A DNA stretch of 61,789 nt from NCBI GenBank assembly GCA_017940415.1, contig JAGAYR010000038.1, positions 1 to 61,789 of the forward strand, written 5' to 3'. Below the pieces are notes generated by a model. The model was not told the DNA's origin. It worked only from the letters and a program-made list of their open reading frames with translations, and searched no databases. This document shows positions 1-41,060 of the stretch, in pieces. The position numbers were made by a program, and so were the translations under genes. Numbering within the stretch: the stretch's first letter is position 1; each line of letters starts with the position of its first letter. The stretch is from Lachnospiraceae bacterium (GTDB lineage Bacteria > Bacillota > Clostridia > Lachnospirales > Lachnospiraceae).

Positions 1-127
1 AAGAGTTTGCCTACAGCTTCCTTCAGATTCCACCTCGCGGTAAACACCCTTGCTGTTCAGCTATACACTTCCTCGTTGCCTAGGCGTGTTCGGGACTTAC
101 ACCCGTTAGAGCGCGCCCATGGCGCGC
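1..127 (-). mobile_element. Group II intron, 5' end (domain I), cut by window edge
   Basis: Read on the minus strand, this stretch opens with a GC-rich helix (GCGCGCC, loop ATG, GGCGCGC), then an ACGGGTG...GTCCCG hairpin, then a run of short helices including CCGCGAGGTGG and an AATCTGAAGGAAGC segment. This order resembles the start of domain I in bacterial group II introns, recalled from memory rather than searched. No protein is encoded here; the intron-encoded reverse transcriptase would lie beyond base 1. The expected GUGYG 5' splice sequence is not clean: a GTTTGCGCG-like start is seen. The position just after a Rho-independent terminator is typical of terminator-targeting introns. A degenerate fragment is possible. 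Confidence 0.6.
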
Positions 128-27330: not shown

Positions 27331-28032
27331 TTATTCTTTGGAATTTTCTGATGCAGATTCCTTACTGCTCTTTCCCAGCACGGGTCTTGCCACATGTACA
27401 TTGAAAAACTCAATGAGAGGTCCCATGAAAAATGCGGTGATGATGGTTCCAACACCTGCAATGGTTGGAATCTGAGAAATCTTCCCCCCCGCGATCACGA
27501 AAAGAATACATCCGATGATAACACATACAAGATCCGTTATGATCCTGACATATTGAAATTTTCCCTTTTTCCAGGTGTTGACGATAATGAGTGCCACTGC
27601 ATCGTAAGTGGAAACACCAAGGTCAGCAGTCATATAAAACGCAGAGCCGAAACAGATAATGACAACACCGACTATCAGGCAGATAACTCTTACCGGCATT
27701 GAAGGATCAACGATCACGGTCTGAAGGAATTCATAAGTAAACTGTGTGATATATCCCAGAAGGAACAGATTAATGAATGTTGCAATACCGATATAATGCC
27801 TGTCAAAAACAAGAGCAAATACAAGCATCACGGCGTTGGTGATCACATAAAGCGTTCCGAAACCGATAGGAATCGCCGCATCAAGTCCCGCCATAAATGA
27901 CTGGAACGGATCAACGCCAAGTGCGGCTATCTTAAAGATACCTACACTTATGGCACATATGATAACTCCGAAAAGTGACATCCCTATTCTTTTGTTACTG
28001 ATCTCTGTTTTGAAATTAAATGTTTTCTTCAT
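27331..28032 (-). CDS. YczE/YitT-type membrane protein
   Basis: The 233-residue protein has five to six membrane helices and the family features: an early GVDPFQSFMAGL loop and a repeated-half motif ADLGVSTYDAVALII. YczE-type proteins are of uncertain function; some act in export or in assembly of large synthases. It precedes the GH9 gene by 16 bases and overlaps the end of the broken metallo-hydrolase gene by 17 bases, so the three once formed one transcript. A role in cellodextrin or related transport would be a guess. Confidence 0.8.
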   Translation of the reverse strand: MKKTFNFKTEISNKRIGMSLFGVIICAISVGIFKIAALGVDPFQSFMAGLDAAIPIGFGTLYVITNAVMLVFALVFDRHYIGIATFINLFLLGYITQFTYEFLQTVIVDPSMPVRVICLIVGVVIICFGSAFYMTADLGVSTYDAVALIIVNTWKKGKFQYVRIITDLVCVIIGCILFVIAGGKISQIPTIAGVGTIITAFFMGPLIEFFNVHVARPVLGKSSKESASENSKE

Positions 28033-28816
28033 TTTTTCTCAGCTCTATTTTCTGCATCACTTTAGGAACAAGGCACTGCACTCTGTCTTTGTATTTGACA
28101 TTTACATAATCCTCGAAAAGCTTGGGATCTTCGCTGTTATCCGCAAACATATCCCAGTGTCCCGGAATGACAAGCTCAGTGCCGCATTCACCCGCAAGAT
28201 CCGCCGCTTCCTGATAAGTCATATTGCCGATGGTATCAGCAGCATAGCGTTTGGCATCACGTCCGTTTATGGGAAGCAACTGGACATCTATCTTACCAAA
28301 GCGTCTCAGCTTAAGCAGCATTCCTTCATATCTGAGAGTATCTCCCGCATGATGAATCCTGAATCCGCCAACTTCTATAATGTACTGAAGGCAGGGATAT
28401 TCCCATGTTGAAGGATCGCGGTCCAGAAATTCATGAGCCGCAGCAATGGCATGTATCCTGATATCTCCTATCTCACATACTTCATCGTCATTCATTCCGA
28501 GTGCGTATTCGGGTTTTACTCAGTCCGCGAGAACTGCTTTCCTGCATTTCTTCGGAAAAATAAATCTGGCATCCGGATTGGTCTTTGCCCATATCTTCCA
28601 TGCCTCATGATCTATATGATCGAGATGATCGTGGGTACCGATAAAGATATCAACATCCTTAAGTTCCTTTGCCGGGATTGGTGCGGGAGTCTGTCTTGTT
28701 TTCAGGGGACTTGCATAATAATCGATCACTATGGTCTTATCCCCTGCCTTGATCATAAGGCCCATCTGACCCAGCCAATATAAATCAAGTTTTTTCATCT
28801 CGTGAAGTTTGTCCAT
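28016..28816 (-). pseudogene. MBL-fold metallo-hydrolase (UlaG-like) interrupted by in-frame TGA
   Basis: Two open stretches lie in one and the same frame. The first, from the ATG at 28816 (GAGGA ribosome binding site), codes for YWLGQMGLMI and the metal motif THDHLDH. It ends with TGA at 28520-28522. The second resumes straight after with VKPEYALGMNDDEV and goes on to AAHEF, the conserved HHAGD and IPGHWDMF, ending at 28016. No base is lost or gained, so a single substitution (for example from TGG or GGA) explains it. The homologues are L-ascorbate-6-phosphate lactonase-like hydrolases of about 265 residues, and the joined length fits. A sequencing error or readthrough cannot be excluded. 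Confidence 0.85.
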
Positions 28817-28957: not shown

Positions 28958-29716
28958 CTATACGGTTATCAGATAATCACCTTCGTCATCGGAAAATCGT
29001 TTGATCCCGACTCCGAAAACATCGGTGATAATGCCGCTTGATATGATTTGCTTGGGAGTCCCCTCCGCTGCTATCTTACGGTCCTTCATGACTATGATCC
29101 TGTCTGCGATCTCAAGTGCCGTGGAAAGTTCGTGCAAAACCAACACAACCGTTTTCCCCTCATTCCTGAGTCCGGAATAGATTTCCGTTATCTTCTTTCT
29201 GCTCGGCTGGTCAAGATACGTTGCCGGTTCATCCGCTATTATCGTATCGCTCTGTTGAGCCAGCTGCATGGCGATAAAAGCTCTTTGCCTTACGCCTCCC
29301 GATAATGTATCCACGCCGGCTGACGAATACTCATCAACTCCCGTTTTGATCATTGCATCGTTAACAATTTTCTTATCTTCTTCTCCGCTTCTTCTGGAAA
29401 AGCCAAGATATGGAAACCTGCCGTGTGATACAAGAGTCTTTACCGGAATAGAAGGAATCACGGAATGAACCTGAGGCAAAAAAGAAAGTCTCTTAGCCCT
29501 TTCCTTGGGCGGAAGCGACAGGTAATCTTCTCCGTTTAAAATGATCTCACCGCCCGTTACTTTACTGCTTCCGTTTAAAGTCTGCAAAAGCGTAGTCTTA
29601 CCGCAGGCGTTTGGTCCTATCAGAACCGTCAGCTTACCTGTTTCAATTTTTAAGCTGATGTCTTCAAGAAGTGTAATACCGTTTTTGGATACGGTAATGT
29701 TTTTAAATTCAAGCAT
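28958..29716 (-). CDS. FecE/BtuD-type ABC transporter ATPase
   Basis: The 252-residue ATPase energises the FecCD-type permease encoded just upstream. It has Walker A GPNACGKTT (about residue 36), the signature LSGGVRQRAFIAMQLA, Walker B TIIADEPATYLD and the switch His in VLHELSTA. The family imports iron-siderophores, haem or cobamides. Its start overlaps the permease stop by 8 bases. The placement at the end of a sulfite-reduction and siroheme operon suggests supply of iron or a tetrapyrrole for the sulfite reductase; this is inference. Confidence 0.92.
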   Translation of the reverse strand: MLEFKNITVSKNGITLLEDISLKIETGKLTVLIGPNACGKTTLLQTLNGSSKVTGGEIILNGEDYLSLPPKERAKRLSFLPQVHSVIPSIPVKTLVSHGRFPYLGFSRRSGEEDKKIVNDAMIKTGVDEYSSAGVDTLSGGVRQRAFIAMQLAQQSDTIIADEPATYLDQPSRKKITEIYSGLRNEGKTVVLVLHELSTALEIADRIIVMKDRKIAAEGTPKQIISSGIITDVFGVGIKRFSDDEGDYLITV

Positions 29717-30725
29717 TTAATCTGCGGCCTCCTTTCTTAATGACAAGAAGGTACATGAAGAAAGGTCCGCCGATGAAGGACATAATAATACCCGTTGGAA
29801 TCTCATAAGGTGAAAACAAAACCCTTGCAAGAAGATCGCATATCATTACAAATGATGCACCGAGCAGGATGCTGCAGGGAATAAGAAGCTTTGCATCATT
29901 CCCGAAAAGCCTTCTGCATATGTGAGGAACGATAAGTCCGACAAATCCAAGAACTCCCGCATAGCTTACCACGCATCCCGCAAGAATACTTGATACGATC
30001 ATCAGGATAAATCTGACAAGCGAAACCCTCATTCCCAAGGATGCCGCCACATCATCCCCAAGCCCCAGAATGTTCAAGGGCCCTGCCAGAAAAAGTGTGA
30101 CAAGTGCCGCAATCACAATAAGGATTCCGGGAACGGTGATATCTCTTACGGATACACCGGATAGTGATCCTATCAGAAAGGAATTGATATTTAATGCAAT
30201 ATCCGTATCCAGGGTTTTGATCAGATTGATACCTGCGGAAAGAAAGCTCGATACCGTGATACCCGCAAGAATTATGGTAATGCGGGAAGTGTCTGCAAAA
30301 TAAGCAAGTGCAAAGATCGTAAGAGTTGCAAAAAGCGCTCCTCCGAAAGCAAAAACAGGCTGAAGCCATACTTTACCCGGAAAGAATGCAAGTGCGAGCA
30401 TTACGAAAAATCCGGCACCGGAACCCACGCCTATGGTATTGGAGCTTGCCAGAGCATTGTTCATCACTCCCTGCAGGATCACTCCGGCTGCGGAAAGCCC
30501 GGCGCCCGCAAGAAGTCCCGCGATAACTCTGGGCAAACGCACATCCCTTATTATTGTGGTTGATACGGGCGAGATATCCGGTGAGAAAAAAGCTCCAAGT
30601 ACATCACGTACGGAGACCTTAACGCTTCCGAATGAAAGAGACGCCAAAAAAGCGATCACCAAGAATATGATCAATCCCGTAACGAGCATGATTTTTTTAT
30701 CACCTTTTTTCTTATAAGTCTTCAT
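29709..30725 (-). CDS. FecCD-family ABC permease
   Basis: The 338-residue protein shows the hallmarks of the FecCD/BtuC family: RLPRVIAGLLAGAGLSAAGV (about residues 47-66), GVGSGAGFFVMLALAFFPG, and YAGVLGFVGLIVPHICRRLFG near residue 255, with about ten membrane helices. It forms a homodimeric channel for a metal chelate or corrinoid together with the ATPase at 28958-29716 and the lipoprotein at 31325-32347. It overlaps the end of the precorrin-2 dehydrogenase gene by 14 bases, so these genes are translated together. Confidence 0.93.
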   Translation of the reverse strand: MKTYKKKGDKKIMLVTGLIIFLVIAFLASLSFGSVKVSVRDVLGAFFSPDISPVSTTIIRDVRLPRVIAGLLAGAGLSAAGVILQGVMNNALASSNTIGVGSGAGFFVMLALAFFPGKVWLQPVFAFGGALFATLTIFALAYFADTSRITIILAGITVSSFLSAGINLIKTLDTDIALNINSFLIGSLSGVSVRDITVPGILIVIAALVTLFLAGPLNILGLGDDVAASLGMRVSLVRFILMIVSSILAGCVVSYAGVLGFVGLIVPHICRRLFGNDAKLLIPCSILLGASFVMICDLLARVLFSPYEIPTGIIMSFIGGPFFMYLLVIKKGGRRLNA

Positions 30726-31323
30726 TCAATAATCTTTCCGTTTCTTCCCGGGATAAAATTCTTTTTTCTCTGAATGCCATATCAGCTGCCTGCTTCAGAA
30801 TGCGATGCCTTTTATGTGAGTCTTCTATCCTGCTTCGGACCACAGGCCTTAAATCATCCAGAAAATCAAGTATCTCCTCAATGTTATCCGGTATCAGTTC
30901 TTCAATCTGTTTCCGAATGGTAATTGCTGCCTGAGGACTTGCACCGGAACTGGATACTCCTATTACAAGCTTATCTTTTCTTATGACGGAAGGAAAAATG
31001 AAATCACATTTATCTTTTCTGTCCACCACATTTACCGGAATCTTATAATTCCTGCAAAGTTCATACACTTCGTCATCAATATCCGGATTACCCGTTGCCG
31101 ATACTACAAAATCAGCGCCGGACAGATCTTCCGGTGCGTATCTTTTGAGGATACATTTCACTTCGGGATTATCGGAGATCTCTCTTTTTATCTCCGGTGC
31201 AATGACAGTGATGCCGGCCCCCAGCCCCGAAAGCTTTTCTATCTTTTCGAGGGCGATATTTCCGCCGCCGATGATCACTATCTTTTTGTTATCCAGTTCA
31301 TGGAAAAGCGGGAAGTAAGCCAT
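30712..31323 (-). CDS. Precorrin-2 dehydrogenase (CysG N-terminal / Met8-like)
   Basis: The enzyme oxidises precorrin-2 to sirohydrochlorin with NAD and may also insert iron, giving siroheme. From the ATG at 31323 it has 203 residues with the dinucleotide-binding IIGGGNIALEKIEKLSGLG (residues 16-34), VSATGNPDIDDEVYELC, NVVDRKDKCDFIFPSVI and the GVSSSGASPQAA segment. The ATG follows the stop of the binding-lipoprotein gene by 1 base. The uroporphyrinogen methyltransferase and chelatase partners are not in the window. The product is the cofactor of the sulfite reductase at 34135-35007, which explains the position. Confidence 0.88.
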   Translation of the reverse strand: MAYFPLFHELDNKKIVIIGGGNIALEKIEKLSGLGAGITVIAPEIKREISDNPEVKCILKRYAPEDLSGADFVVSATGNPDIDDEVYELCRNYKIPVNVVDRKDKCDFIFPSVIRKDKLVIGVSSSGASPQAAITIRKQIEELIPDNIEEILDFLDDLRPVVRSRIEDSHKRHRILKQAADMAFREKRILSREETERLLNEDL

Positions 31324-31324
31324 A

Positions 31325-32347
31325 TCATTCTCCGTACAAAATGTCGTAAAGTTTTTGGTAAGCTTCTGCCCATCTTGCATTAGGCTTGGAATTATACAGT
31401 TCTTTTTCCAGCACATAATAATGACCGTTCTGAACTGCTGACAGCTGCGCCCAGGCAGGATTATTGATGAGGAGATCTTCTACGTTTGCAAGAGCAGCTT
31501 CCTTATCCTCACCCTGAGTTGTCACAAAGATGTAATCGGGATCTGCAGCTACAATAGCTTCAAGACTGAGATCGTCAAGTATCGCAGAATCAGAATCCGC
31601 TATATTGATGCATCCAAGATCTGCAAGAATCTCACCGCCTACCGTTCCTTCACTGCCCTTTGCCTTAACAGAGCTTGCCGCCGCACGGATAAAAAGTACC
31701 GTGGGATTAGTATCGGGAACAGCTGCTTTGATATCATCTATCTGCCCGGCGATCTGTGTTCCGTACAGATCAAATAAATCTTTTCTTCCCGTAATATCGG
31801 TAAGGATATCAAGCACTCCAAGATAATCGTCAAAATTCGATACCTCAAAATACGCAACATTAAGTCCGGCTGTTTCAAATGTATCAAGAAGTTCCACCTG
31901 TGCATCGGTTCCGGCACTGGCGATCACAAAATCAGGCTGAAGTGCAATAAGAGCTTCCACATTTGGCTCTAGCATTTTACCCAGGTCTGCGGTTCCTTCC
32001 GCAAGATTGTAGCTTTTGAATGCATCACTTACCGCGCCGCTTACTTCTCCACCTGCGAGTGTCCACATATCACAGAAGCTTCCGATAAGTACGGCAACAT
32101 TTTCCGTGCTGCTTACCGTAACCTCTCTTCCGAGAGCATCGATAAATACATACTCCGAAGTCTCTGCCACTTCTGCATCCTCTACAGTCGCCGGCTCTGC
32201 AGCTGACGTAATCTCAACATCGGATGAGATAAGGTTCTCTGAAACTTCAGTATTTTCCGAGCTACGGTCATTTCCGGATGCACATCCTGCTATCAGGAAA
32301 AGAGAAGTAAGTATTGCTATGGATTTTGTTAAAGTAGCTTTTTTCAT
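31325..32347 (-). CDS. FepB/BtuF-type substrate-binding lipoprotein
   Basis: The 340-residue lipoprotein has lipobox LIAGC (Cys22), a Ser/Glu-rich spacer (24-62) and a class III binding fold with the typical DALGREVTV start, EALIALQPDFVIAS, a long backbone helix at about 180-200 and SLEAIVAADPDYIFV. It would deliver an iron chelate, haem-like or corrinoid ligand to the FecCD permease. The upstream ribosome binding site is weak. It sits between the JAMM protease gene (18 bases before) and the precorrin-2 dehydrogenase gene. Confidence 0.9.
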   Translation of the reverse strand: MKKATLTKSIAILTSLFLIAGCASGNDRSSENTEVSENLISSDVEITSAAEPATVEDAEVAETSEYVFIDALGREVTVSSTENVAVLIGSFCDMWTLAGGEVSGAVSDAFKSYNLAEGTADLGKMLEPNVEALIALQPDFVIASAGTDAQVELLDTFETAGLNVAYFEVSNFDDYLGVLDILTDITGRKDLFDLYGTQIAGQIDDIKAAVPDTNPTVLFIRAAASSVKAKGSEGTVGGEILADLGCINIADSDSAILDDLSLEAIVAADPDYIFVTTQGEDKEAALANVEDLLINNPAWAQLSAVQNGHYYVLEKELYNSKPNARWAEAYQKLYDILYGE

Positions 32348-32365
32348 AAATCTGTAAAATCACTT

Positions 32366-32797
32366 TCAATAATAGTATTTCCCGGATATGATCCTGAGAT
32401 CTTCCTTGGATACTTTACCATCCTCTACATGAAAAGAATTCAGCACGGGATTTTCCGCCATAAGTGACAGGATAAAATAGCTTGCATTCTTGTCATAAGA
32501 AAGTCTGATATCTTCCTCGGAAGGTCTTGAAGGAGATTCGGGATGGGAATGCCAGTTACCCAGAGGCTTAAGAGAGTTTGCTCTCATATCCTTTACCGCA
32601 TCAAGCTGCTCTTTGGGATCAAGGGTAAAGTGATCGTCAGAGTGATCCACATTTGTAAGGAAATATACTTTCTTTACAAGCTTTCCTTCCTCCGTTTCTT
32701 CACCTGCGATAAGTCCGCAGGCTTCTTCGGGTAAATGCTCTCTTGCATTTTTTACGATATCGTCATATAAGCGATAATCAATTCTTACGATTGCCAT
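32366..32797 (-). CDS. JAMM/Mov34 metalloprotease acting on the sulfur carrier
   Basis: From the ATG at 32797 (AGGAGA ribosome binding site) the 143-residue protein carries a complete JAMM zinc site: Glu24/25 in PEEACGL and the exact spacing His83-x-His85-x7-Ser93-x2-Asp96. Proteins of this family next to ThiS- and ThiF-like genes trim a precursor tail from the carrier and release the amino acid from carrier-thioester or peptide adducts (Mec in Mycobacterium, HcyD in Wolinella). Here it would expose Gly-Gly on the carrier encoded at 33629-33835 and free homocysteine. It follows the E1-like gene by 16 bases. Confidence 0.9.
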   Translation of the reverse strand: MAIVRIDYRLYDDIVKNAREHLPEEACGLIAGEETEEGKLVKKVYFLTNVDHSDDHFTLDPKEQLDAVKDMRANSLKPLGNWHSHPESPSRPSEEDIRLSYDKNASYFILSLMAENPVLNSFHVEDGKVSKEDLRIISGKYYY

Positions 32798-32813
32798 TTT
32801 GTCTCCTGAATCA

Positions 32814-33629
32814 TTATGCATGTGACTTAAGTTCACATGCCGGCTGCTCATAATCGATGGGCTTAAGTATGGTGGGATGGTCTCCGCATACCTCACAGTT
32901 ATGGGTATCCTTAGGAAGCTTTATCTTATGGAATTCCATGGTAAGCGCATCGTATGTAAGGAGATATCCGGTAAGAAGATCACCTACTCCGATGATGTAT
33001 TTTATGGCTTCCATTGCCTGAAGGCTTCCGATAACTCCGCCCATTGCTCCGATAACGCCTGCCTGCTTACAGGTAGGAACCGCATCCTTCGGAGGCGGAT
33101 TCTTGAATACACATCTGTAACATGGTCCCTGTCCGGGAACATAGGTCATGAGCTGACCCTTGAATCTGATGATACCTGCGTGTGAGAAGGGTTTCTTTTC
33201 AAGAACGCATGCATCGTTTATCAGAAACTTTGCGGGGAAATTGTCGGTTCCGTCGATGATAAAGTCATAATCGCGGATCAGCTGCTGAATATTATCGGAA
33301 TATACGAACTCTCTGTAGGTAGTAACCTCTACATCGGGGTTCATTGCATTCATTGTTTCCTTGGCCGACTGAACCTTTGCTTTACCAACATCAGCAGTCT
33401 GGTGAATGATCTGTCTCTGAAGGTTTGAAAGGTCTACGGCATCGGCATCTACTATACCGATATGTCCTACGCCTGCTGCCGCAAGATACATTGCAGCGGG
33501 AGCTCCGAGGCCGCCGGCACCGATTATAAGTACCTTGGCATTAAGGAGCTTCTTCTGTCCTTTTGCTCCGACTTCCTTAAGAATGATATGTCTGGAATAT
33601 CTCTCAAGCTGCTCGTCAGTAAGTGCCAT
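32814..33629 (-). CDS. ThiF/MoeB/HesA-like carrier-activating enzyme (HcyF-like)
   Basis: The E1-like enzyme adenylates the C-terminal glycine of the ThiS-like carrier so that sulfide can form a thiocarboxylate. The 271 residues include the N-terminal RYSRHIILKEVG, the nucleotide loop GAGGLGAP (37-44), the Arg finger region DLSNLQRQ (67-72) and the zinc pairs Cys170/Cys173 and Cys245/Cys248. Cys187 in PTCKQAGVIG corresponds to the catalytic cysteine position. The ATG at 33629 shares its A with the TGA of the carrier gene, and the ribosome binding site GGGAGG is made from the carrier's Gly codons. An ATG two codons earlier is too close to that site. Confidence 0.9.
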   Translation of the reverse strand: MALTDEQLERYSRHIILKEVGAKGQKKLLNAKVLIIGAGGLGAPAAMYLAAAGVGHIGIVDADAVDLSNLQRQIIHQTADVGKAKVQSAKETMNAMNPDVEVTTYREFVYSDNIQQLIRDYDFIIDGTDNFPAKFLINDACVLEKKPFSHAGIIRFKGQLMTYVPGQGPCYRCVFKNPPPKDAVPTCKQAGVIGAMGGVIGSLQAMEAIKYIIGVGDLLTGYLLTYDALTMEFHKIKLPKDTHNCEVCGDHPTILKPIDYEQPACELKSHA

Positions 33630-33835
33630 CAGCATCCACCTCCCATGAAATAAAGGAACTCAACATTGTCTCCGTCCTTAAGAACGGTGGATTCCTTCTT
33701 ATCTGCCTCAACGAATTCCTCGTTGACAGATACGGTCACATACTCGGGCATCTCAACATTCTCTGCGGCAAGAAGCTCGGGAAGAGTAAGTCCGTCTTTG
33801 TATTCTTTCTTTTCACCTGCTACTGTAATGATCAT
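33629..33835 (-). CDS. ThiS/MoaD-like sulfur carrier protein with Gly-Gly-Gly-Cys tail (HcyS-like)
   Basis: This 68-residue ubiquitin-fold protein starts MIITVAGEKKEYKDGLTLPE and ends YFMGGGC. In thiamine and Moco carriers the protein ends at Gly-Gly; here the last residue is Cys68 after Gly65-67. A residue beyond the glycines means the tail must be clipped before activation, and the JAMM protease gene two genes downstream supplies that function. No thiamine genes (thiG, thiH, thiE) are near, so sulfur delivery for homocysteine is the better reading. It lies 33 bases after the TusA-like gene. Confidence 0.88.
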   Translation of the reverse strand: MIITVAGEKKEYKDGLTLPELLAAENVEMPEYVTVSVNEEFVEADKKESTVLKDGDNVEFLYFMGGGC

Positions 33836-33868
33836 TTTTTCATTCTCCTAAATCTGTATTTGTCCGGA

Positions 33869-34114
33869 TCAGTCTCCGGCCTTCTTAACATAGAGGGTAT
33901 AGGTTCCGTCACCGTTATCATCGAGTTTGAGGATCTGATGTCCTTCGTCTTTGATGGAACGGGGCACATTTTGAACGGGCTCTCCGTCATTCATTCTGAT
34001 GGCAAGAATCTGTCCGTCATCAAGTTCATCAAGTGTTACCTTAGCCTTTACAAAAGTTAAAGGGCAAACCTTATCGGTTATATCAACCGATTCATCAAAT
34101 GCTATATCTGCCAT
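33869..34114 (-). CDS. TusA/SirA-like sulfur-transfer protein
   Basis: The 81-residue protein has the TusA fold: a leading strand with the CP motif VCPLTFVKAKV (Cys17), the LDELDDGQILAIRMNDGE segment and NVPRSIKDEGHQIL. Cys17 can carry a persulfide. The start at 34114 is chosen because GGAAGG lies 8 bases before it, while the two upstream in-frame starts sit on top of that site. Between the sulfite reductase and the carrier genes it may shuttle reduced sulfur to the carrier-activating enzyme. Confidence 0.85.
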   Translation of the reverse strand: MADIAFDESVDITDKVCPLTFVKAKVTLDELDDGQILAIRMNDGEPVQNVPRSIKDEGHQILKLDDNGDGTYTLYVKKAGD

Positions 34115-34134
34115 ATTCATCACCTTCCTTAGTG

Positions 34135-35007
34135 TTATTTACCTTCGTAAGCCGCTTGGATTTCTTTTCTGAACTCCTCTTCTCCTACTCTCTGAAGAGT
34201 CTTTCTGAATCTTTCTCCCGCATTTGCATGCTTGTCGAAAAAGTCGATTGCAGCATCCGCAACTCTGAAGAGTGTTTCTTTATCTTTAATGATGGGAACG
34301 ATCTGCTCACCCTTGTATATCTGGTTTCCGAAAAGTCCTCCGAAAGAAACGATATATCCGGGTTCATGATCCCATGCATCTGTGGGGCAGCTCTTTACGC
34401 AGCGTCCACAGTTATTACACTTCGATGTATCAAGTACAACCTTGCCGTTTTCTTCAAGTGATAATGCGCCTTCCCTGCAAGCCTTGATACAAACTCCGCA
34501 GGAGATGCAGCTCTCGGGCTTGTAATCGATGATGTATCCGCCCTTAACACCCAGGTCGTTTTCCTCACTCTTAAGGCAGTTGTTCATGCAGCCCGTAACT
34601 CCGAATTTGAATTTATGAGGAAGCTCTCTTCCAAAATATCTCTCATCAAATTCCTTGGCCAGTTCGTAACTGTCGATACATCCGCTGGGACATATTGCCG
34701 AGCCCTGACAGGCTGTGACGGTTCTTACTCTGGGACCGCACACACCGGGTTTAACTCCCCCCTCAAGAAGTTTAGCCCTGACCTCTTCGATGTCATTGAA
34801 GCCTATAAAAGGAATCTCAACACCCTGCCTGGAGGTCATATGAACATAACCTTTACCATACTTCTCAGCGACCTCCGCGATGGTCTTGATATTCTCTGCG
34901 GTAAGGTTACCGCCTACAACAGCGAGTCTCAGTGAAAAGAAACCCTTCTGCTTCTGCCTCATGAATCCGCCTTTTTTCAGTGACGAATAATCGATCTGTT
35001 CTGCCAT
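34135..35007 (-). CDS. Siroheme sulfite reductase with two [4Fe-4S] ferredoxin clusters
   Basis: The 290-residue enzyme is the compact, AsrC-like type and would reduce sulfite to sulfide in the cytoplasm. A half-domain with HMTSRQGVEIPF (56-67) binds substrate. The siroheme-[4Fe-4S] cysteines are Cys100, Cys106, Cys140 and Cys144 (CQGSAIC and CMNNC). Two ferredoxin motifs follow inside the same chain, Cys167/170/173/177 and Cys197/200/203/207, so electrons can enter from ferredoxin without a flavoprotein subunit. A GGAGGAAG ribosome binding site precedes the ATG. It is 9 bases after metY. Confidence 0.92.
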   Translation of the reverse strand: MAEQIDYSSLKKGGFMRQKQKGFFSLRLAVVGGNLTAENIKTIAEVAEKYGKGYVHMTSRQGVEIPFIGFNDIEEVRAKLLEGGVKPGVCGPRVRTVTACQGSAICPSGCIDSYELAKEFDERYFGRELPHKFKFGVTGCMNNCLKSEENDLGVKGGYIIDYKPESCISCGVCIKACREGALSLEENGKVVLDTSKCNNCGRCVKSCPTDAWDHEPGYIVSFGGLFGNQIYKGEQIVPIIKDKETLFRVADAAIDFFDKHANAGERFRKTLQRVGEEEFRKEIQAAYEGK

Positions 35008-35016
35008 TTCTTCCTC

Positions 35017-36258
35017 CTATGCTTCAAGGCCGATTGCCCTGAATGCTTTATCAAAATCATCTTTGAGATCTTGTATATCTTCTATTCCTACACTTATTCT
35101 GATCAGATCATCAAACACTCCGGCATCTTCTTTTTGCTTCTCGGTTGAATGAAGACTTATTGTCGAAGATGGATGAAGCACAAGTGTCTTGGTATCACCT
35201 ATGTTTGATAATCTGTAAGCCAGTTCCAGCTCATCAAGAAGCTTAAAGGCACTTTCTTTGGATCCCACACGGATAGTAACTATTGCTCCGTATCCTCCTT
35301 TTAAAAGCTTGCCTCCAATGTCATGCCATTTACTTGACTTAAGGCCTGGATAATTGACCGTTATCTGCGGATATCTTTTTTCAAGATATTCAGCCAGCTT
35401 CCCGGCGTTGGTACATTGGCGCTCCATACGCAGTCCCAATGTCTCCAATCCTATCTGATTCAAGTAAGCTGTCTGAGGTGCCATACAGGCTCCCGCATTT
35501 CTGAAAAGTCCGGCACGGAGCTTTGCAAGATATGCATAAGGTCCGAACTTGATGTAATCCTTCAGGATGGGGAATTTATCTTTGTTCCATTTGAACTTAC
35601 CGCTGTCTGTCAGAACCCCTCCGATGGCATTGCTGCTTCCGTTTATATATTTCGATGTGGAGTTTATTACTATGTCCGCACCGTGTTCGAAAACCTTCAC
35701 CAGATACGGTGTTGCTACCGTGTTATCGATGATAAGAGGTATGCCGTGAGCATGTGCTATCTTGGCAAGTTCATCAATGTCCGTAACATCCAGACAGGGA
35801 TTTCCGATTGTCTCCGCATACAGGAGTTTTGTTTTCTCTGTAATGGCATTTTCTATCTGCTCAAAATTGTTGTTCTCGATATATGTGGTCTTTATACCGA
35901 ACGCTTCCAGATCCCTGAAGAAATCTATCGTTCCTCCGTAGAGACTTGAGCTTGATACGATCTCGTCTCCGCTTTCCAGGATATTGGTCAGTGCACAGAA
36001 GATTGCAGACATTCCGGATGAGGTTGCCACGCTTCCGACTCCGCCTTCAAGTTTGGTTATCCTGTTCTCAAAGGCTGTTACCGTAGGATTCGCAACCCTG
36101 GTATAACAGTAACCCGGTGTCTTTCCTCCGAAAATTCCTTCAAGATCCTCTGCGCTTTGCTGGTAAAATGCGCTGGTCTGATATATCGGAGTCAGGGTGG
36201 ATCCGTATTTTTCTTTTTTATCTACTCCGCCGTGGAGAAGTGCTGTGTTGAAATTCAT
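35017..36258 (-). CDS. metY: O-acetylhomoserine sulfhydrylase (PLP enzyme, MetY)
   Basis: The 413-residue PLP enzyme replaces the acetyl group of O-acetylhomoserine with sulfur. Family marks are YGSTLTPIYQTSAFYQQS, GYCYTRVANPTV (49-60), ATSSGMSAI (78-86), the PLP lysine Lys203 in NSTSKYINGSS and LVLHPSSTISL. In the thiocarboxylate pathway MetY uses the carrier protein as sulfur donor; with free sulfide it works alone. It is first in the run of genes that ends at 28958 and has a CGGAGG ribosome binding site. The 119-base gap upstream holds a terminator and a short TTCCGAA/TTCGGAA hairpin. Confidence 0.92.
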   Translation of the reverse strand: MNFNTALLHGGVDKKEKYGSTLTPIYQTSAFYQQSAEDLEGIFGGKTPGYCYTRVANPTVTAFENRITKLEGGVGSVATSSGMSAIFCALTNILESGDEIVSSSSLYGGTIDFFRDLEAFGIKTTYIENNNFEQIENAITEKTKLLYAETIGNPCLDVTDIDELAKIAHAHGIPLIIDNTVATPYLVKVFEHGADIVINSTSKYINGSSNAIGGVLTDSGKFKWNKDKFPILKDYIKFGPYAYLAKLRAGLFRNAGACMAPQTAYLNQIGLETLGLRMERQCTNAGKLAEYLEKRYPQITVNYPGLKSSKWHDIGGKLLKGGYGAIVTIRVGSKESAFKLLDELELAYRLSNIGDTKTLVLHPSSTISLHSTEKQKEDAGVFDDLIRISVGIEDIQDLKDDFDKAFRAIGLEA

Positions 36259-36339: not shown

Positions 36340-36370
36340 AGCCGGCTATAGGCTATAGCTATAACCGGCT
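36340..36370 (-). terminator. Hairpin terminator between the uptake and homocysteine gene sets
   Basis: AGCCGG(C)TATAG pairs with CTATA(A)CCGGCT. The T-rich flank on the minus strand is CTATTTTATAA, on the plus strand TTTTTCT. It ends transcripts from the arylsulfotransferase gene, probably with some readthrough into metY. Confidence 0.7.
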
Positions 36371-36377
36371 TTTTCTA

Positions 36378-37889
36378 TTATTTGTTTTTCTCAAGTTCGC
36401 TCTTGTGAACGGACAGGACGCAGAAATCAAGACGCTTGTCTTCTTTCTTATCATCCTTCTTAGGACCGCCGCTCATTCCGGTAACGCTGGCACCGTCGGG
36501 ATCCACACCGTCGATGGTTGTTACCTTACCGGTTCCCGCACCCTTTGATGCTCCGGGAACACGGAAAGTCTCTACGTTGAGAGGCTCGATTGAAGTCTCA
36601 ACAGGCTTTTCAACCTGAGGAATCCACTCATAGGGAACACGATATGCACGGTATACCATGTTCATGGAAACCTTTCCTGCGATGGTCTTGAAATAGGGAT
36701 TAATATATTCCCAGACTATCTCATGGTCGGGTGTTACCTCTATAAGTCTTCCATCGGATCCTTCAGTGATCAGAGTATTTCCGTTGGGAAGTCTCTGTGC
36801 CGAGCTGATGTACGAGCTGTAGAACTTGGACGCATCCGTAAAAAGAAGGAAGCCTGCTTCAAGAGGTGTGTACTGCCACTTGATCTCAAGAGTGATGGGA
36901 TCAAACTCCAGAACTCTTGAATAATCTCTGTGGGCATTGTTGTTGCCGGTTACGGATGAAGGGTTGGGAGTTCCGTATCCGCCCTCTCCTCCGTTATCGA
37001 ATACCAGGAGATTACCTTCTCCGGGAAGTCCCTTGGGGATCATGTGGAAATGATGCTGTCCGATGATCCATCCAAGCTTTCTGAGCTCCTTGGTCTTGGA
37101 AAAGTCAGGTCCGATCTGCCATACGATCTCGCCTGTCTTCTTGCTTACGATGGCAAGGATATTTGCGTTTCTTGCATCGAAGATCAGGTTATCGGGATGG
37201 AATCTCTCATCACCTGCGTCATACCACTTGTTGGGACCGAGTACGGATACGCAGTTAACATGTAACCAGTCTCCGCCTGCTTCTCCGTGTACTCCGGGGT
37301 TTCTTGCAAGAGTGTTCTTGGCAGCTTCGTCAAAATCGAATTCCTCGAAATGATCGCTTGCTCTCCAGCTCCAGAGAATGTTTCCCTCCCAGTCTACTTC
37401 GATGAATTTATCATCGATGAGTTCTTTGTCACTGATCGCGGGGTTGGTAACATTCTCGTGAACGAGAAGAATGGTGTTTCCGCCTTCCGTCTTGGGCTCT
37501 CCGCCGGGATAATAATATCCTACGGTGTTACCCTCTCTTTGGAAATCATGGTGCTGTCTTGCCTGCCAGCGCGGCTCGAAGCCCTCATCCTCGATATATT
37601 CCGTGTGGTCGAATTTCCATACGATATTTCCGTCCCAGTCTACCTGAACCAGATCCAGCTGATCCTGATATGCCTTCTTGGACTCTCTTCTGCCGGTTGT
37701 TCCGAGAACATATCCGCCGGGAAGGATCTTGTTGGGGAAGCCGCCGAGGCCGGCCCAGAGATTAACTTCGTTACCGTTCATATCGATAAGAAGTGCACCC
37801 TTTACTGTAGGGAATACGGTATAACCGCTCCATGTTTTTTCTTTGTCGAACTGTAAAACTCCTGTGGGAAATACGCTGGGATAGCCCAT
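36378..37889 (-). CDS. Arylsulfotransferase-like (ASST) beta-propeller protein, cytoplasmic
   Basis: The 503-residue protein has repeated propeller blades of the type VDWDGNIVWKFDH, VDWEGNILWSWRA, KTGEIVWQIGPDF and PDHEIVWEYINPY, with conserved His in RQHHDFQREGN, WLHVNCVS and IIGQHHFHMIP, the last being the likely sulfo-accepting histidine. ASST enzymes move sulfate groups from aryl sulfate esters to phenols. The known ones are mostly exported, but no signal peptide is seen here. The C-terminal tail (about 430-503) is Gly/Lys/Asp-rich and looks disordered. It follows the binding-lipoprotein gene by 27 bases, so its substrate is probably what that importer brings in. Confidence 0.78.
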   Translation of the reverse strand: MGYPSVFPTGVLQFDKEKTWSGYTVFPTVKGALLIDMNGNEVNLWAGLGGFPNKILPGGYVLGTTGRRESKKAYQDQLDLVQVDWDGNIVWKFDHTEYIEDEGFEPRWQARQHHDFQREGNTVGYYYPGGEPKTEGGNTILLVHENVTNPAISDKELIDDKFIEVDWEGNILWSWRASDHFEEFDFDEAAKNTLARNPGVHGEAGGDWLHVNCVSVLGPNKWYDAGDERFHPDNLIFDARNANILAIVSKKTGEIVWQIGPDFSKTKELRKLGWIIGQHHFHMIPKGLPGEGNLLVFDNGGEGGYGTPNPSSVTGNNNAHRDYSRVLEFDPITLEIKWQYTPLEAGFLLFTDASKFYSSYISSAQRLPNGNTLITEGSDGRLIEVTPDHEIVWEYINPYFKTIAGKVSMNMVYRAYRVPYEWIPQVEKPVETSIEPLNVETFRVPGASKGAGTGKVTTIDGVDPDGASVTGMSGGPKKDDKKEDKRLDFCVLSVHKSELEKNK

Positions 37890-37916: not shown

Positions 37917-39014
37917 TTAATCAAGATTAACGGTTACTGCTTCGGGGAAAGCGATGTTTGCGGGTCTTGCATCATAGAACTCGGTTACCTGATAATCGGT
38001 CTCGAATCTTCCTGCGCCGTATGCCCACTGCTCGATCTCCTGAAGATGTGCTGCGGAGTCTGCATTAAGTCCGTGCTGGAATACTCTGTTGGTCCAGTTG
38101 GATTTGAAATCCTCGGGGATGAGGGAAAGCTTTTCTCCGAGATAATCAGCTGTCTCATCAAGGTTATTGTTGATGAAGTCGATGGTCTCGTCTACAGCAA
38201 GAAGGTACTGTGCAAGAGCATCGGTATGCTCTGAGATAAATCCTTCAGTGGAAAGAAGATATGCGGTGGTGCTGATTCCGATCTCATCTGCGGTTGCAAC
38301 CTTAACCCATCCGAGTTCCTCAAAACGTGTTGCGGTGGAACCTGATGCGAAATATGCAGAAGCACCTCCTGAGCTTGCCACTGCGAGAGCGGTCTGTGTC
38401 GAATCAACTGCTACGATGTTCTGCTTATCGTAATCAAATCCGAGATACTCAATGGATCTTGCAATGTAATAGTCAACCACGGTACCGGTGGTGGTTACGA
38501 AGCCCTTGCTTCCGTCAAGTGAACTGATGTCATCTGCATATTCGGGAGCCACATAGAGTCCTCCGACTCTGTCACCCTGAGGTGCGCCGAGATCCGAGAA
38601 GATCTTAAGATCAGTTACTCCGTAGGTATTCCCGAGACGGTTAACCGTTGCATAGTCAGCCATGTTTCCGATATCAGCGGTTCCGTTTACGATTGCATCG
38701 ATGGTTGCGATTCCATATACATACTCGGTGATCTCAACTTCAAGTCCGTACTTTTCAAAGATTCCCTGCCACTGACCTACTTCATCAATGTACTGGTCAA
38801 GTCCGCCGGTCATAACTGCGAGACGAAGAAAGGTCTTCTCTGCGGGTGCATCTGCAGGTGCTCCTGCAGCATCGAGTGATACGGTGTCACTGGTTACATC
38901 AGCTTCCCGGGAAGGCTGAGATCCGGTATTACCCGATCCTGTATTTCCGCATCCTGCAAGAGATGCTGCTGTCAAAATTCCTGCTGTTAATAAACCGATC
39001 AATTTCTTTTTCAT
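37917..39014 (-). CDS. SsuA/TauA-like substrate-binding lipoprotein (sulfonate or sulfate ester)
   Basis: From the ATG at 39014 (GAGGAA ribosome binding site) the 365-residue protein has lipobox SLAGC (Cys22), a Ser/Asp-rich spacer and a two-domain NMT1/SsuA-like fold: FLRLAVMTGGLDQYIDE, IFEKYGLEVEITEYVYG, NGTADIGNMADYATVN and GSKGFVTTTGTVVDYY. Proteins of this class bind sulfonates, sulfate esters, nitrate or thiamine precursors. Its place between an SsuC-like permease and the arylsulfotransferase favours an organosulfur ligand. The open frame upstream of Met is not coding, since it overlaps the permease gene out of frame. Confidence 0.85.
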   Translation of the reverse strand: MKKKLIGLLTAGILTAASLAGCGNTGSGNTGSQPSREADVTSDTVSLDAAGAPADAPAEKTFLRLAVMTGGLDQYIDEVGQWQGIFEKYGLEVEITEYVYGIATIDAIVNGTADIGNMADYATVNRLGNTYGVTDLKIFSDLGAPQGDRVGGLYVAPEYADDISSLDGSKGFVTTTGTVVDYYIARSIEYLGFDYDKQNIVAVDSTQTALAVASSGGASAYFASGSTATRFEELGWVKVATADEIGISTTAYLLSTEGFISEHTDALAQYLLAVDETIDFINNNLDETADYLGEKLSLIPEDFKSNWTNRVFQHGLNADSAAHLQEIEQWAYGAGRFETDYQVTEFYDARPANIAFPEAVTVNLD

Positions 39015-39055: not shown

Positions 39056-39826
39056 TTATTTCACTCCAAAATGTTTCAGAGTTTTTTTGCCTATAAAATA
39101 AAGCAGTCTGTCGAGTACAAATCCTATAAGAGCCAGGGTAAAGATTCCTGCAAATGCCCAAGCTGTCTTGTAATACATTCTCGAACTCTGGATCAGATAT
39201 CCCAGTCCGTCTCCTCCTACCAGCATCTCAGCTGCGATAACGCAGATGATGCTTGATCCCAGTCCGAGTCTTACACCGGTGAAGATGTTGGGTACAGCCG
39301 AAGGAACTATTACCGTAAAGAAAACTCTTAACTTTCCCGCACCCATACAGGATGCTGCTTCTATAAGGGATTTATCTGCGGTAACAACCCCTGCAATGGT
39401 ATTTACGAATATGGGGAAGAATGCCGCGTACAGGATAAGTGCAACCTTTGATTTATCATCAACTCCGAACCAGATAAGAAACATTGAAGTAAGTGCGATG
39501 GCGGGAATGAATCTGAAAAGACTCAGTACCGGTTCTACAAGAAGTCTTACGGGTTTGAAATGTCCGGTCACAAGTCCGATCGGTACACCGAAAAGTATTG
39601 CAAGTCCCCATCCTTTTCCTATTCTCCTAAGGGAAGCAATGATGTCTGCTCCAAGTGTTCCATCCTTAATTATCTTAAGAAGCGCATTCCAGGTTTCTAT
39701 GGGTGACGGGAAGAATATCTCGTCGTAGTTGTAACCTACAAGACTCCATGCAGCGAATACTATGATCCAGGAGATGATACCGATCTTGAAGATCCTCTCC
39801 ACTATGCTGATTTCTTTCTTTTCCAT
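39056..39826 (-). CDS. SsuC/TauC-like ABC permease
   Basis: The 256-residue membrane protein has six helices and the family loops SLRRIGKGWGLAILFGVPIG (about 64-83), RFIPAIALTSMFLIWFG and the EAA-type LIEAASCMGAGKLRVFFTVI (about 154-173). It forms the homodimeric channel for the SsuA-like lipoprotein and the CysA-like ATPase. A good AAAGGAGA ribosome binding site precedes the ATG, 12 bases after the ATPase gene. Confidence 0.9.
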   Translation of the reverse strand: MEKKEISIVERIFKIGIISWIIVFAAWSLVGYNYDEIFFPSPIETWNALLKIIKDGTLGADIIASLRRIGKGWGLAILFGVPIGLVTGHFKPVRLLVEPVLSLFRFIPAIALTSMFLIWFGVDDKSKVALILYAAFFPIFVNTIAGVVTADKSLIEAASCMGAGKLRVFFTVIVPSAVPNIFTGVRLGLGSSIICVIAAEMLVGGDGLGYLIQSSRMYYKTAWAFAGIFTLALIGFVLDRLLYFIGKKTLKHFGVK

Positions 39827-39838
39827 AACTCGTCTCCT

Positions 39839-40900
39839 TTAGATGAAGTAGGTATTCGAATCATCGAGCGAGCTGTTCTTAACCAGATAAGTTTCTTCTC
39901 CGCGGATGATGTAGATCATGTTGATAAGTGCTTTTACTTTGTCTCCGGACTTAAGAGGACCGTTTACAAGAGGTGAACTTGCTTTGATCCTAAGTCCGTC
40001 TATATCGAGAATGACTTCAAAGCTGTCTCCTCTGAAAATGCTCTGTTCTACGGTAGCTTCTTCGTATGAAGGATCGTTGCCTTTGGGTGAATCTGCGGTG
40101 AGGAGTTCTACGAATTCAGGTCTGATGATTGCTTCGGTTCCCTCTCCCTCATCCTTAAAGCCCTTTAGTCTGTCATATTCTTTCAGTACGCTGGACTTTC
40201 CGATGAACTTAGCTGTGAAGGAAGTCTTCGGATGAAGGTAAATGTCTACGGGATCTCCAACCTGTTCAACCTTTCCTTCGTTTGTGATTACGATCTCATC
40301 CGCAACCTCGATTGCTTCGTCCTGATCGTGTGTTACGAAGATGCTTGTTATACCGATCTTATCGATTGTTCTTCTCAGCCAGGTTCGAAGTTCCTGTCTT
40401 ACCTTTGCATCTATCGCAGCGAAGGGCTCATCGAGAAGAAGAAGTTCGGGCTCGGGAGCAAGTGCTCTGGCAAGAGCGATTCTCTGTCTCTGTCCGCCGG
40501 AGAGCTGGTCGGGATATCTTTTCTCAAGGCCGGGAAGACTTACCAGATCAAGAAGTTCTGTAACTCTCTTTTTGATATATTCTTTATCCTTACCCGCAAC
40601 TTTGAGTCCGTATGCTATGTTGTCGTATACCGTAAGGTAAGGAAACAATGCGTAATTCTGAAATACGAATCCGACCCCTCTCTGACTGGGTGAAAGATCG
40701 TTTACAAGTTTTCCGTTTATGTAGATATCTCCGGAATCCTGTTTCTCAAGTCCCGCTATCATTCTGAGGATGGTAGTCTTACCGCTTCCGCTGGGTCCGA
40801 GAAGTCCGATGAGCTTTCCTTTTTCGATTTCGAAGCTTACATCTTTGGATGCCTGTGTATCTCCGAATGTTTTGTTTATGTTTTTGAGCTGTACATACAT
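39839..40900 (-). CDS. CysA-like ABC transporter ATPase with C-terminal TOBE-type domain
   Basis: The 353-residue ATPase has Walker A GPSGSGKTT (about 35-43), the signature LSGGQRQRIALARALA, Walker B LLLLDEPFAAID and switch His in VTHDQDEA. After residue 235 there is a regulatory domain (IIRPEFVELL, RGDSFEVILDIDGLRIKASS) as in the sulfate/molybdate ATPase CysA, whereas SsuB and TauB proteins stop near 255 residues. So a CysA-type engine is paired with an SsuC-type channel. It is first in its operon. Confidence 0.9.
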   Translation of the reverse strand: MYVQLKNINKTFGDTQASKDVSFEIEKGKLIGLLGPSGSGKTTILRMIAGLEKQDSGDIYINGKLVNDLSPSQRGVGFVFQNYALFPYLTVYDNIAYGLKVAGKDKEYIKKRVTELLDLVSLPGLEKRYPDQLSGGQRQRIALARALAPEPELLLLDEPFAAIDAKVRQELRTWLRRTIDKIGITSIFVTHDQDEAIEVADEIVITNEGKVEQVGDPVDIYLHPKTSFTAKFIGKSSVLKEYDRLKGFKDEGEGTEAIIRPEFVELLTADSPKGNDPSYEEATVEQSIFRGDSFEVILDIDGLRIKASSPLVNGPLKSGDKVKALINMIYIIRGEETYLVKNSSLDDSNTYFI

Positions 40901-41025: not shown

Positions 41026-41060
41026 CACAAAAAAATCCGGCAGGATAACCTGCCGGATTT
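41026..41060 (-). terminator. Strong Rho-independent terminator after the GT-C-like gene
   Basis: On the minus strand a perfect 12-base stem (AAATCCGGCAGG with CCTGCCGGATTT, loop TTAT) is followed by a run of seven T. It lies 17 bases past the stop of the gene at 41078. Confidence 0.95.

Follow-up and report, generated by a model that had tools for sequence, protein, structure and literature searches.

What supplies the sulfur to a homocysteine (Hcy) operon that encodes a sulfite reductase and a protein-thiocarboxylate pathway, and whose run of genes holds no gene for sulfate activation or reduction? The question is raised by a gene run in a 61,789-nucleotide stretch of DNA (the window) from a Lachnospiraceae bacterium, which we compared with fetched loci (labeled with L-numbers) and genomes (G-numbers; G000, 84% complete, is the genome of the window). 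The operon is real, and its core is ordinary and already known. The new part is its front, where an ABC importer and an arylsulfate sulfotransferase-like protein (ASST) stand in place of sulfate-reducing machinery. We see about an even chance that this 12-kb run carries sulfur from an imported organosulfur compound to homocysteine, with ASST and a thioredoxin (Trx) forming the entry.

A preliminary description of the window listed ten genes, from MetY to FecE, at 28958–36258. Open reading frame (ORF) and profile scans bear out the list and its order, with all ten genes on the minus strand and correctly named at the family level. With the starts chosen here, the short gaps (1–33 bases) and overlaps it described are also present, the overlaps falling at HcyS/HcyF, SirC/FecCD, and FecCD/FecE. 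The described run was incomplete, as it starts at 40900 and four same-strand genes ahead of MetY had been overlooked. These encode an ABC ATPase, a permease, a substrate-binding protein (SBP), and ASST, with intergenic gaps of 12, 41, and 27 bases, and ASST is separated from MetY by 119 bases. The whole run, from 40900 to 28958, contains the following features:

39839..40900, minus strand: ABC transporter ATPase, first in the run (profiles; TOBE match just below cut-off)
39056..39826, minus strand: ABC permease, SaoP/TauC/SsuC-like (scores under NCBIfam cut-offs)
37917..39014, minus strand: substrate-binding lipoprotein-like protein, weak match to the SsuA family (35 bits against a cut-off of 163.5; start 39014 chosen here)
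36378..37889, minus strand: ASST, arylsulfotransferase-like beta-propeller protein of 503 aa (PF05935), the proposed sulfur-entry enzyme
36340..36370, minus strand: terminator-like hairpin between ASST and MetY (consensus match only)
35017..36258, minus strand: MetY, O-acetylhomoserine sulfhydrylase family (profiles and PDB comparison)
34135..35007, minus strand: siroheme sulfite reductase (Sir), AsrC-like, with NIR_SIR domains and two 4Fe-4S stretches (TIGR02912, 157 bits, under the cut-off of 324)
33869..34123, minus strand: TusA-like sulfur carrier (PF01206, 67.5 bits)
33629..33835, minus strand: HcyS, ThiS-like carrier with C-terminus GGGC (profiles)
32814..33635, minus strand: HcyF, E1/MoeB-like (ThiF family) adenylyltransferase with no rhodanese match (profiles)
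32366..32797, minus strand: HcyD, JAMM protease (Prok-JAB; probable start 32797, ORF opens at 32896)
31325..32347, minus strand: FepB/BtuF-class SBP (Peripla_BP_2) with a lipoprotein-like N-terminus (profiles, PDB)
30712..31323, minus strand: SirC, precorrin-2 dehydrogenase, CysG N-terminal (TIGR01470, 140.3 bits against a cut-off of 62.3; probable start, ORF opens at 31416)
29709..30725, minus strand: FecCD permease (profiles)
28958..29716, minus strand: FecE-like ABC ATPase (profiles)

The core of this run has precedents. The Wolinella pathway, with its gene names and details, was reportedly described by Krishnamoorthy and Begley in 2011 and is said to include Sir. Like that pathway, the window combines a carrier with one or more residues past GG, an E1-like enzyme, a JAMM protease, MetY, and a sulfite reductase; unlike it, the window lacks sulfate activation genes and has the front importer with ASST, TusA, and a siroheme/FepB module. 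Excerpts of three papers describe Wolinella succinogenes making methionine by the protein-thiocarboxylate route (PMC6271081; PMC6225789; PMC5764234). The core set was also described as conserved neighborhood 4e by Iyer et al. (2006), which in the excerpted text comprises a ThiS/MoaD-like protein, a JAB protease, an E1 without rhodanese, SirA/TusA, sulfite reductase, O-acetylhomoserine sulfhydrylase, and an ABC transporter (PMC1779556). The window shares this core and an ABC transporter, so the core is not new, and Sir and TusA, which the preliminary description took for additions seen here, were already part of it. However, neighborhood 4e has PAPS (phosphoadenosine phosphosulfate) reductase and ATP sulfurylase, both missing from the window run, whereas ASST and FepB/Fec are unlisted and siroheme is nowhere mentioned in the excerpted text (PMC1779556).

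The importer and ASST occupy the place before MetY in the window, in G041, G389, and G662, and in L108, L109, and L110. The order ABC-permease-SBP-(Trx)-ASST-MetY-Sir-TusA-(Trx)-HcyS-HcyF-HcyD recurs in L108, L110, and L116/L037, and the same order plus thioredoxin reductase (TrxR) is found in L086/L087/L109, where L109 (Blautia sp. MSJ-9) has the whole set. The front ATPase is 75% identical in L037 and 74–92% identical in L107–L110 and L116. Other linked loci are arranged differently. L128 reads TrxR-MetY-Sir-TusA-Trx-HcyS-HcyF-HcyD, followed by an AraC-like regulator, CysK, Trx, ASST, and the importer. In Olsenella L139 and actinobacterium L146 (both metagenome-assembled genomes or uncultured assemblies), ASST diverges from SBP-permease-ATPase-Sir-TusA-Trx-HcyS-HcyF-HcyD; MetY is listed in L146, and HcyS is absent from the script's listing of that locus, yet its genome has a ThiS match. 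All linked loci seen contain TusA. Loci L093 (weak matches of 22–33%), L138 (Sir at 27%), and L111 (no full set in view) were not counted as linked. On an ASST tree built by a quick method with one support value, Hcy-linked ASSTs fall in at least three lineages spanning Bacillota and Actinomycetota. Removal of sequences at least 97% alike reduced 98 ASST loci to 84, and 60 of these have an importer-type gene no more than three genes from ASST (52 when only permeases are counted). Permeases account for 53 of the 466 genes within three of ASST and for 5 of 657 control genes. In L103-, L152-, and L182-type loci, an ORF of ~467–477 aa follows ASST and is annotated as an SLC13 family permease in Cetobacterium L103.

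The run in the window contains no sulfate activation or reduction gene, and G000, at its 84% completeness, has no match to PF01507, which covers CysD and CysH, or to PF01747 (Sat). PF01507 is absent from nine of the ten genomes with ASST near Hcy genes, which are not nine independent cases (G389, G662, and G673 are close kin), and PF01747 from all nine linked genomes, with that of L128 left out. Across the order, JAMM relatives occur in 39 of 295 genomes, 36 of them strong. From 35 genomes we fetched 36 JAMM neighborhoods in stretches of up to 20 kb; in 13 of 37 loci (these and the window) the Hcy genes have a CysD nearby, in most cases accompanied by AprA, AprB, and CysN, names that reflect a reading of the sequences, with CysD backed by PF01507 matches at the same places. 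PF01507 matches at E <1e-30 occur in 22 of the 36 strong-JAMM genomes (window and G041 included). Six of the 36 have ASST, a weak match in G241 being counted as none, and the two in which it is linked have no PF01507. The Hcy genes of L053, L055, and their relatives are accompanied by a membrane protein that was read as YeiH-like; G175 and G231, genomes of this type, have no PF01507 match that would explain their sulfur source.

The window ASST matches PF05935 above cut-off, has the sulfotransferase propeller fold, and finds sulfotransferases as its best solved matches. It resembles the PAPS-independent arylsulfate sulfotransferases (E. coli 3ELQ/3ETS, Desulfitobacterium DhAST, Streptomyces Cpz4) in fold, family, and the aligned residues HHD, HxN, R, and QH. 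Its H279, H210-x-N212, and R240 align with H352, H284-x-N286, and R302 of an uncharacterized Desulfosporosinus protein (L187), through which, rather than through a directly aligned characterized enzyme, the active-site comparison runs. The active-site histidine is H436 in E. coli ASST and H351 in DhAST, and the roles of HxN and Arg are likewise taken from excerpted literature. By these comparisons the protein is a putative sulfuryl transferase, sulfuryl transfer being the family chemistry in the excerpted text of a 2026 review, which states that the natural acceptors of most such enzymes have yet to be identified and that little is understood of their roles (PMC13426309). Unlike the E. coli enzyme, the window ASST is short, with the E. 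coli N-terminal domain outside the aligned range, and unlike known ASSTs its group is tied to thioredoxin, an importer, and sulfite reductase. A profile scan found no PF01507 (PAPS_reduct) match in the protein.

Fifteen of the 84 loci have a separate thioredoxin no more than three genes from ASST (CxxC in all, CxHC in 12). In five of the 84, Trx is fused to ASST (PF00085 confirmed in the four checked), at three weakly supported places on the tree. Excluding thioredoxins beside TusA/HcyS, Trx makes up 15 of 466 ASST-near genes and 1 of 657 control genes (p 1.6e-5); with these kept the counts are 15 and 6 (p 0.006), and TrxR-like proteins, detected with a loose profile, are weakly enriched (16/466 vs. 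7/657, p 0.009), all Fisher p-values that overstate significance as the loci are related to each other. A TrxR-Trx-ASST-importer unit also occurs in Blautia hansenii (L129; no PF01507 match) and Eubacterium ramulus (L115). No cysteine is invariant across 17 aligned ASSTs; thus there is no conserved disulfide for Trx to reduce. Our literature search listings held no work linking aryl-sulfate sulfotransferase and thioredoxin as one system, although two listed papers each mention both terms once.

The lower part of the run fits the protein-thiocarboxylate route named in the preliminary description. Carrier and E1 adjoin the JAMM gene in 35 of 36 fetched neighborhoods, a clustering that exceeds chance, and in the window the E1-like enzyme, MetY, and Sir share one neighborhood. 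All 47 listed carriers extend 1–6 residues beyond GGG (among them a few that share a genome or come from near-identical ones, and two second ThiS-like ORFs), so trimming by the JAMM protease is expected, and the HxH...D motif is intact in the window (HSHPESPSRPSEED) and present in 36 of 37 sequences, the remaining one being a fragment. MetY is in view in 28 of the 36 loci, and the homoserine acyltransferase PF04204 is found in eight of nine genomes with ASST–Hcy linkage. Closeness of MetY to 3ri6, which we take to be the Wolinella enzyme, was considered as a sign of carrier use and is uninformative, as 7kb0 is the best solved match (380 vs. 302 bits); sequence does not decide whether MetY uses the carrier thiocarboxylate. 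Use of the carrier for thiamine synthesis through ThiG, one of the counter-cases named in the preliminary description, was rejected on the distribution of ThiG and ThiS in the nine genomes where ASST adjoins Hcy genes. Full-length ThiG and a second ThiS elsewhere are present in five, while G000 (where HcyS is the sole ThiS match), G041, G676, and G677 have one ThiS and no ThiG match or a weak partial one. Variants of the core were also seen: in four of 36 loci (L062–L065) a ~764-aa protein beside the Hcy genes has a TusA match and reads as a sulfite/nitrite reductase-TusA fusion, an extra sulfite reductase copy (71%) lies between HcyD and FepB (L110:16338-17207), and a second ThiS-like ORF ending in GGGSC lies 5–6 kb off the Hcy genes at L058:14079-14282 and L059:18462-18725.

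How these parts may work together is suggested by PAPS reductase, which forms a thiol S-sulfonate from which a second cysteine releases sulfite. In the route we propose, a sulfonate/taurine-type ABC importer would take in a sulfate ester, whose sulfuryl group would be accepted by the ASST active-site histidine and passed to a thiol, most likely the first cysteine of a CxxC thioredoxin. The second cysteine would then attack the S-sulfonate and free sulfite, with no need for ATP sulfurylase or APS (adenosine phosphosulfate)/PAPS reductase. Family memberships suggest that Sir would make sulfide from this sulfite, with SirC making or completing the siroheme and FepB/FecCD/FecE supplying iron or a tetrapyrrole. 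By homology, HcyD would cut HcyS after GGG, HcyF would adenylate it, sulfide would form the HcyS thiocarboxylate with the assistance of TusA, and MetY would move the sulfur onto O-acetylhomoserine. The likeness to PAPS/APS reductase with thioredoxin, namely thiol attack on an activated sulfuryl and sulfite release, is one of mechanism only; the protein families are unrelated, and a sulfate ester would serve as the donor here. The ASST-Trx fusion resembles that of plant APR1 to a thioredoxin-like domain in the excerpted account (PMC6827007). An ASST-Trx step would account for the association with Sir, for the missing sulfate activation, and for the recurrence of Trx fusions. We regard the steps from Sir with its siroheme supply through the carrier thiocarboxylate to MetY as likely, and we lean toward ASST as the sulfur entry. 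Thioredoxin as the sulfuryl acceptor is a tentative assignment that falls somewhat short of even chances, and more tentative still is the general claim that Trx-dependent ASST relatives free sulfite from imported sulfate esters, giving anaerobes an activation-free sulfur assimilation.

Several observations weigh against entry through ASST and thioredoxin. The acceptors of known ASSTs in the excerpted literature are hydroxyls and some amines, sulfite release not being among the reported reactions. No thioredoxin lies beside ASST or elsewhere in the 61.8 kb of the window, which holds no TrxR either, and 64 of the 84 ASST loci have no Trx within three genes; where none adjoins ASST, as in the window, an alternative acceptor such as TusA might serve. 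The absence of PF01507 accompanies ASST–Hcy linkage yet extends beyond it: of 30 Hcy genomes without ASST (the unfetched, weak-JAMM genomes G157, G251, and G278 omitted), 19 have PF01507 and 11 do not, so its absence is not specific to linkage. The genome of L128 combines linkage with a CysD-type (PF01507) match, and in G141, G166, G172, and G187, where ASST is on another contig or more than 20 kb off, PF01507 is present in three of four. The closest ASST relative, in L107 (96%), follows an importer without MetY-Hcy genes after it, and the hairpin at 36340–36370 could separate ASST from the MetY transcript. This hairpin, one of 17 consensus matches in the region against 10.7 expected, is possibly a boundary or an attenuator. 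Both it and the importer-ASST units that stand free in many loci, L107 included, suit a plain Hcy operon living on environmental sulfite or sulfide, with a separate importer-ASST unit that detoxifies phenols by adding or removing sulfate groups. We consider this unlikely in view of a linkage that appears in at least three lineages of Bacillota and Actinomycetota in differing gene orders, mostly in genomes without sulfate activation.

The missing PF01507 (9/10) and PF01747 (9/9) in linked genomes also leave only a slim chance of ASST being a sulfatase or transferase whose sulfate is reduced by enzymes encoded elsewhere, although sulfuryl transfer is the family chemistry and several ASST genomes have CysD-type matches; G442, G520, and G585 are further ASST genomes with strong PF01507 matches. 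The resemblance of permease and SBP to the SaoP/TauC/SsuA families could instead mean that the importer carries a sulfonate such as taurine or isethionate, cleaved to sulfite by another enzyme with ASST as an accessory. No C–S lyase gene was seen in the run (the rest of the genome was unsearched for sulfonate lyases), and the importer-type genes that accompany ASST, no more than three genes away, in 60 of 84 loci tie the two together, making this account quite improbable; a search of PDB sequences with the front SBP gave no relative at E 0.01 and hence no pointer to the substrate. Similarly, there is little probability that MetY takes free sulfide while the carrier-E1-JAMM set makes another product. 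MetY stands nearer in the PDB to other sulfhydrylases than to 3ri6, and eight of the 36 loci, some at contig ends, show no MetY beside the set, but it is in the neighborhood in the other 28 and ThiG fails to explain the carrier.

If sulfur does enter through ASST and thioredoxin, sulfate activation would be dispensable for assimilating oxidized sulfur, gut commensals could draw sulfur from aryl sulfates of host and dietary origin, and a large branch of the ASST family would have its physiological role accounted for. The linkage suggests a concrete role for the ASST family, sulfur acquisition, and a likely acceptor, thioredoxin. Isolates in which this is testable exist, namely Blautia sp. MSJ-9, Blautia hansenii, and Eubacterium ramulus.

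The preliminary description also coupled cofactor supply to the sulfur route. Siroheme genes do recur near Hcy loci; the imported substrate may be iron, a siroheme precursor, or a corrinoid. FepB-FecCD, often with FecE, lies beside or within ~10 kb of the Hcy genes at 36–65% identity in L048, L050, L052, L057, L060, L061, L108, L110, L139, and L146 (the FepB of L037, at 22%, was not counted). SirC adjoins FepB in L108 and L110, with FecCD-FecE on the opposite strand, and in Olsenella-type bacteria a CbiK-family chelatase (PF06180) lies between HcyD and FepB (L139:2075-2857; L146:1867-2694). By reading of names, hem or cobA-hemD genes occur in L032–L036, L038, L046, L047, L051, L066, and L067, and SirC in the Hcy loci L041 and L043. 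No locus with both hem genes and a FepB importer was found by eye in stretches of up to 20 kb, whole genomes being unsearched for hem. The window SBP scores 72 bits for IsdE against a cut-off of 299, and iron-uptake and siderophore SBPs head its PDB list, with BtuF lower. The recurrence of FepB/Fec with SirC and CbiK supports cofactor supply and not a particular importer substrate, and import of a siroheme precursor is a lead only; the titles and abstract openings in our literature search held no work on a siroheme-importer link.

A promoter scan of the region was uninformative (17 found vs. 20.3 expected), and a second terminator-like hairpin lies at 41060–41033, after the gene upstream of the run. 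The sole Rfam match in the window is an intron end and no RNA regulator; at the edge of the contig, positions 1–44 (minus strand) hold a portion of a group II intron structure. At 28016–28816 (minus strand), two neighboring ORFs match the two halves of one UlaG-like metallo-beta-lactamase-fold protein, and the gene appears split.

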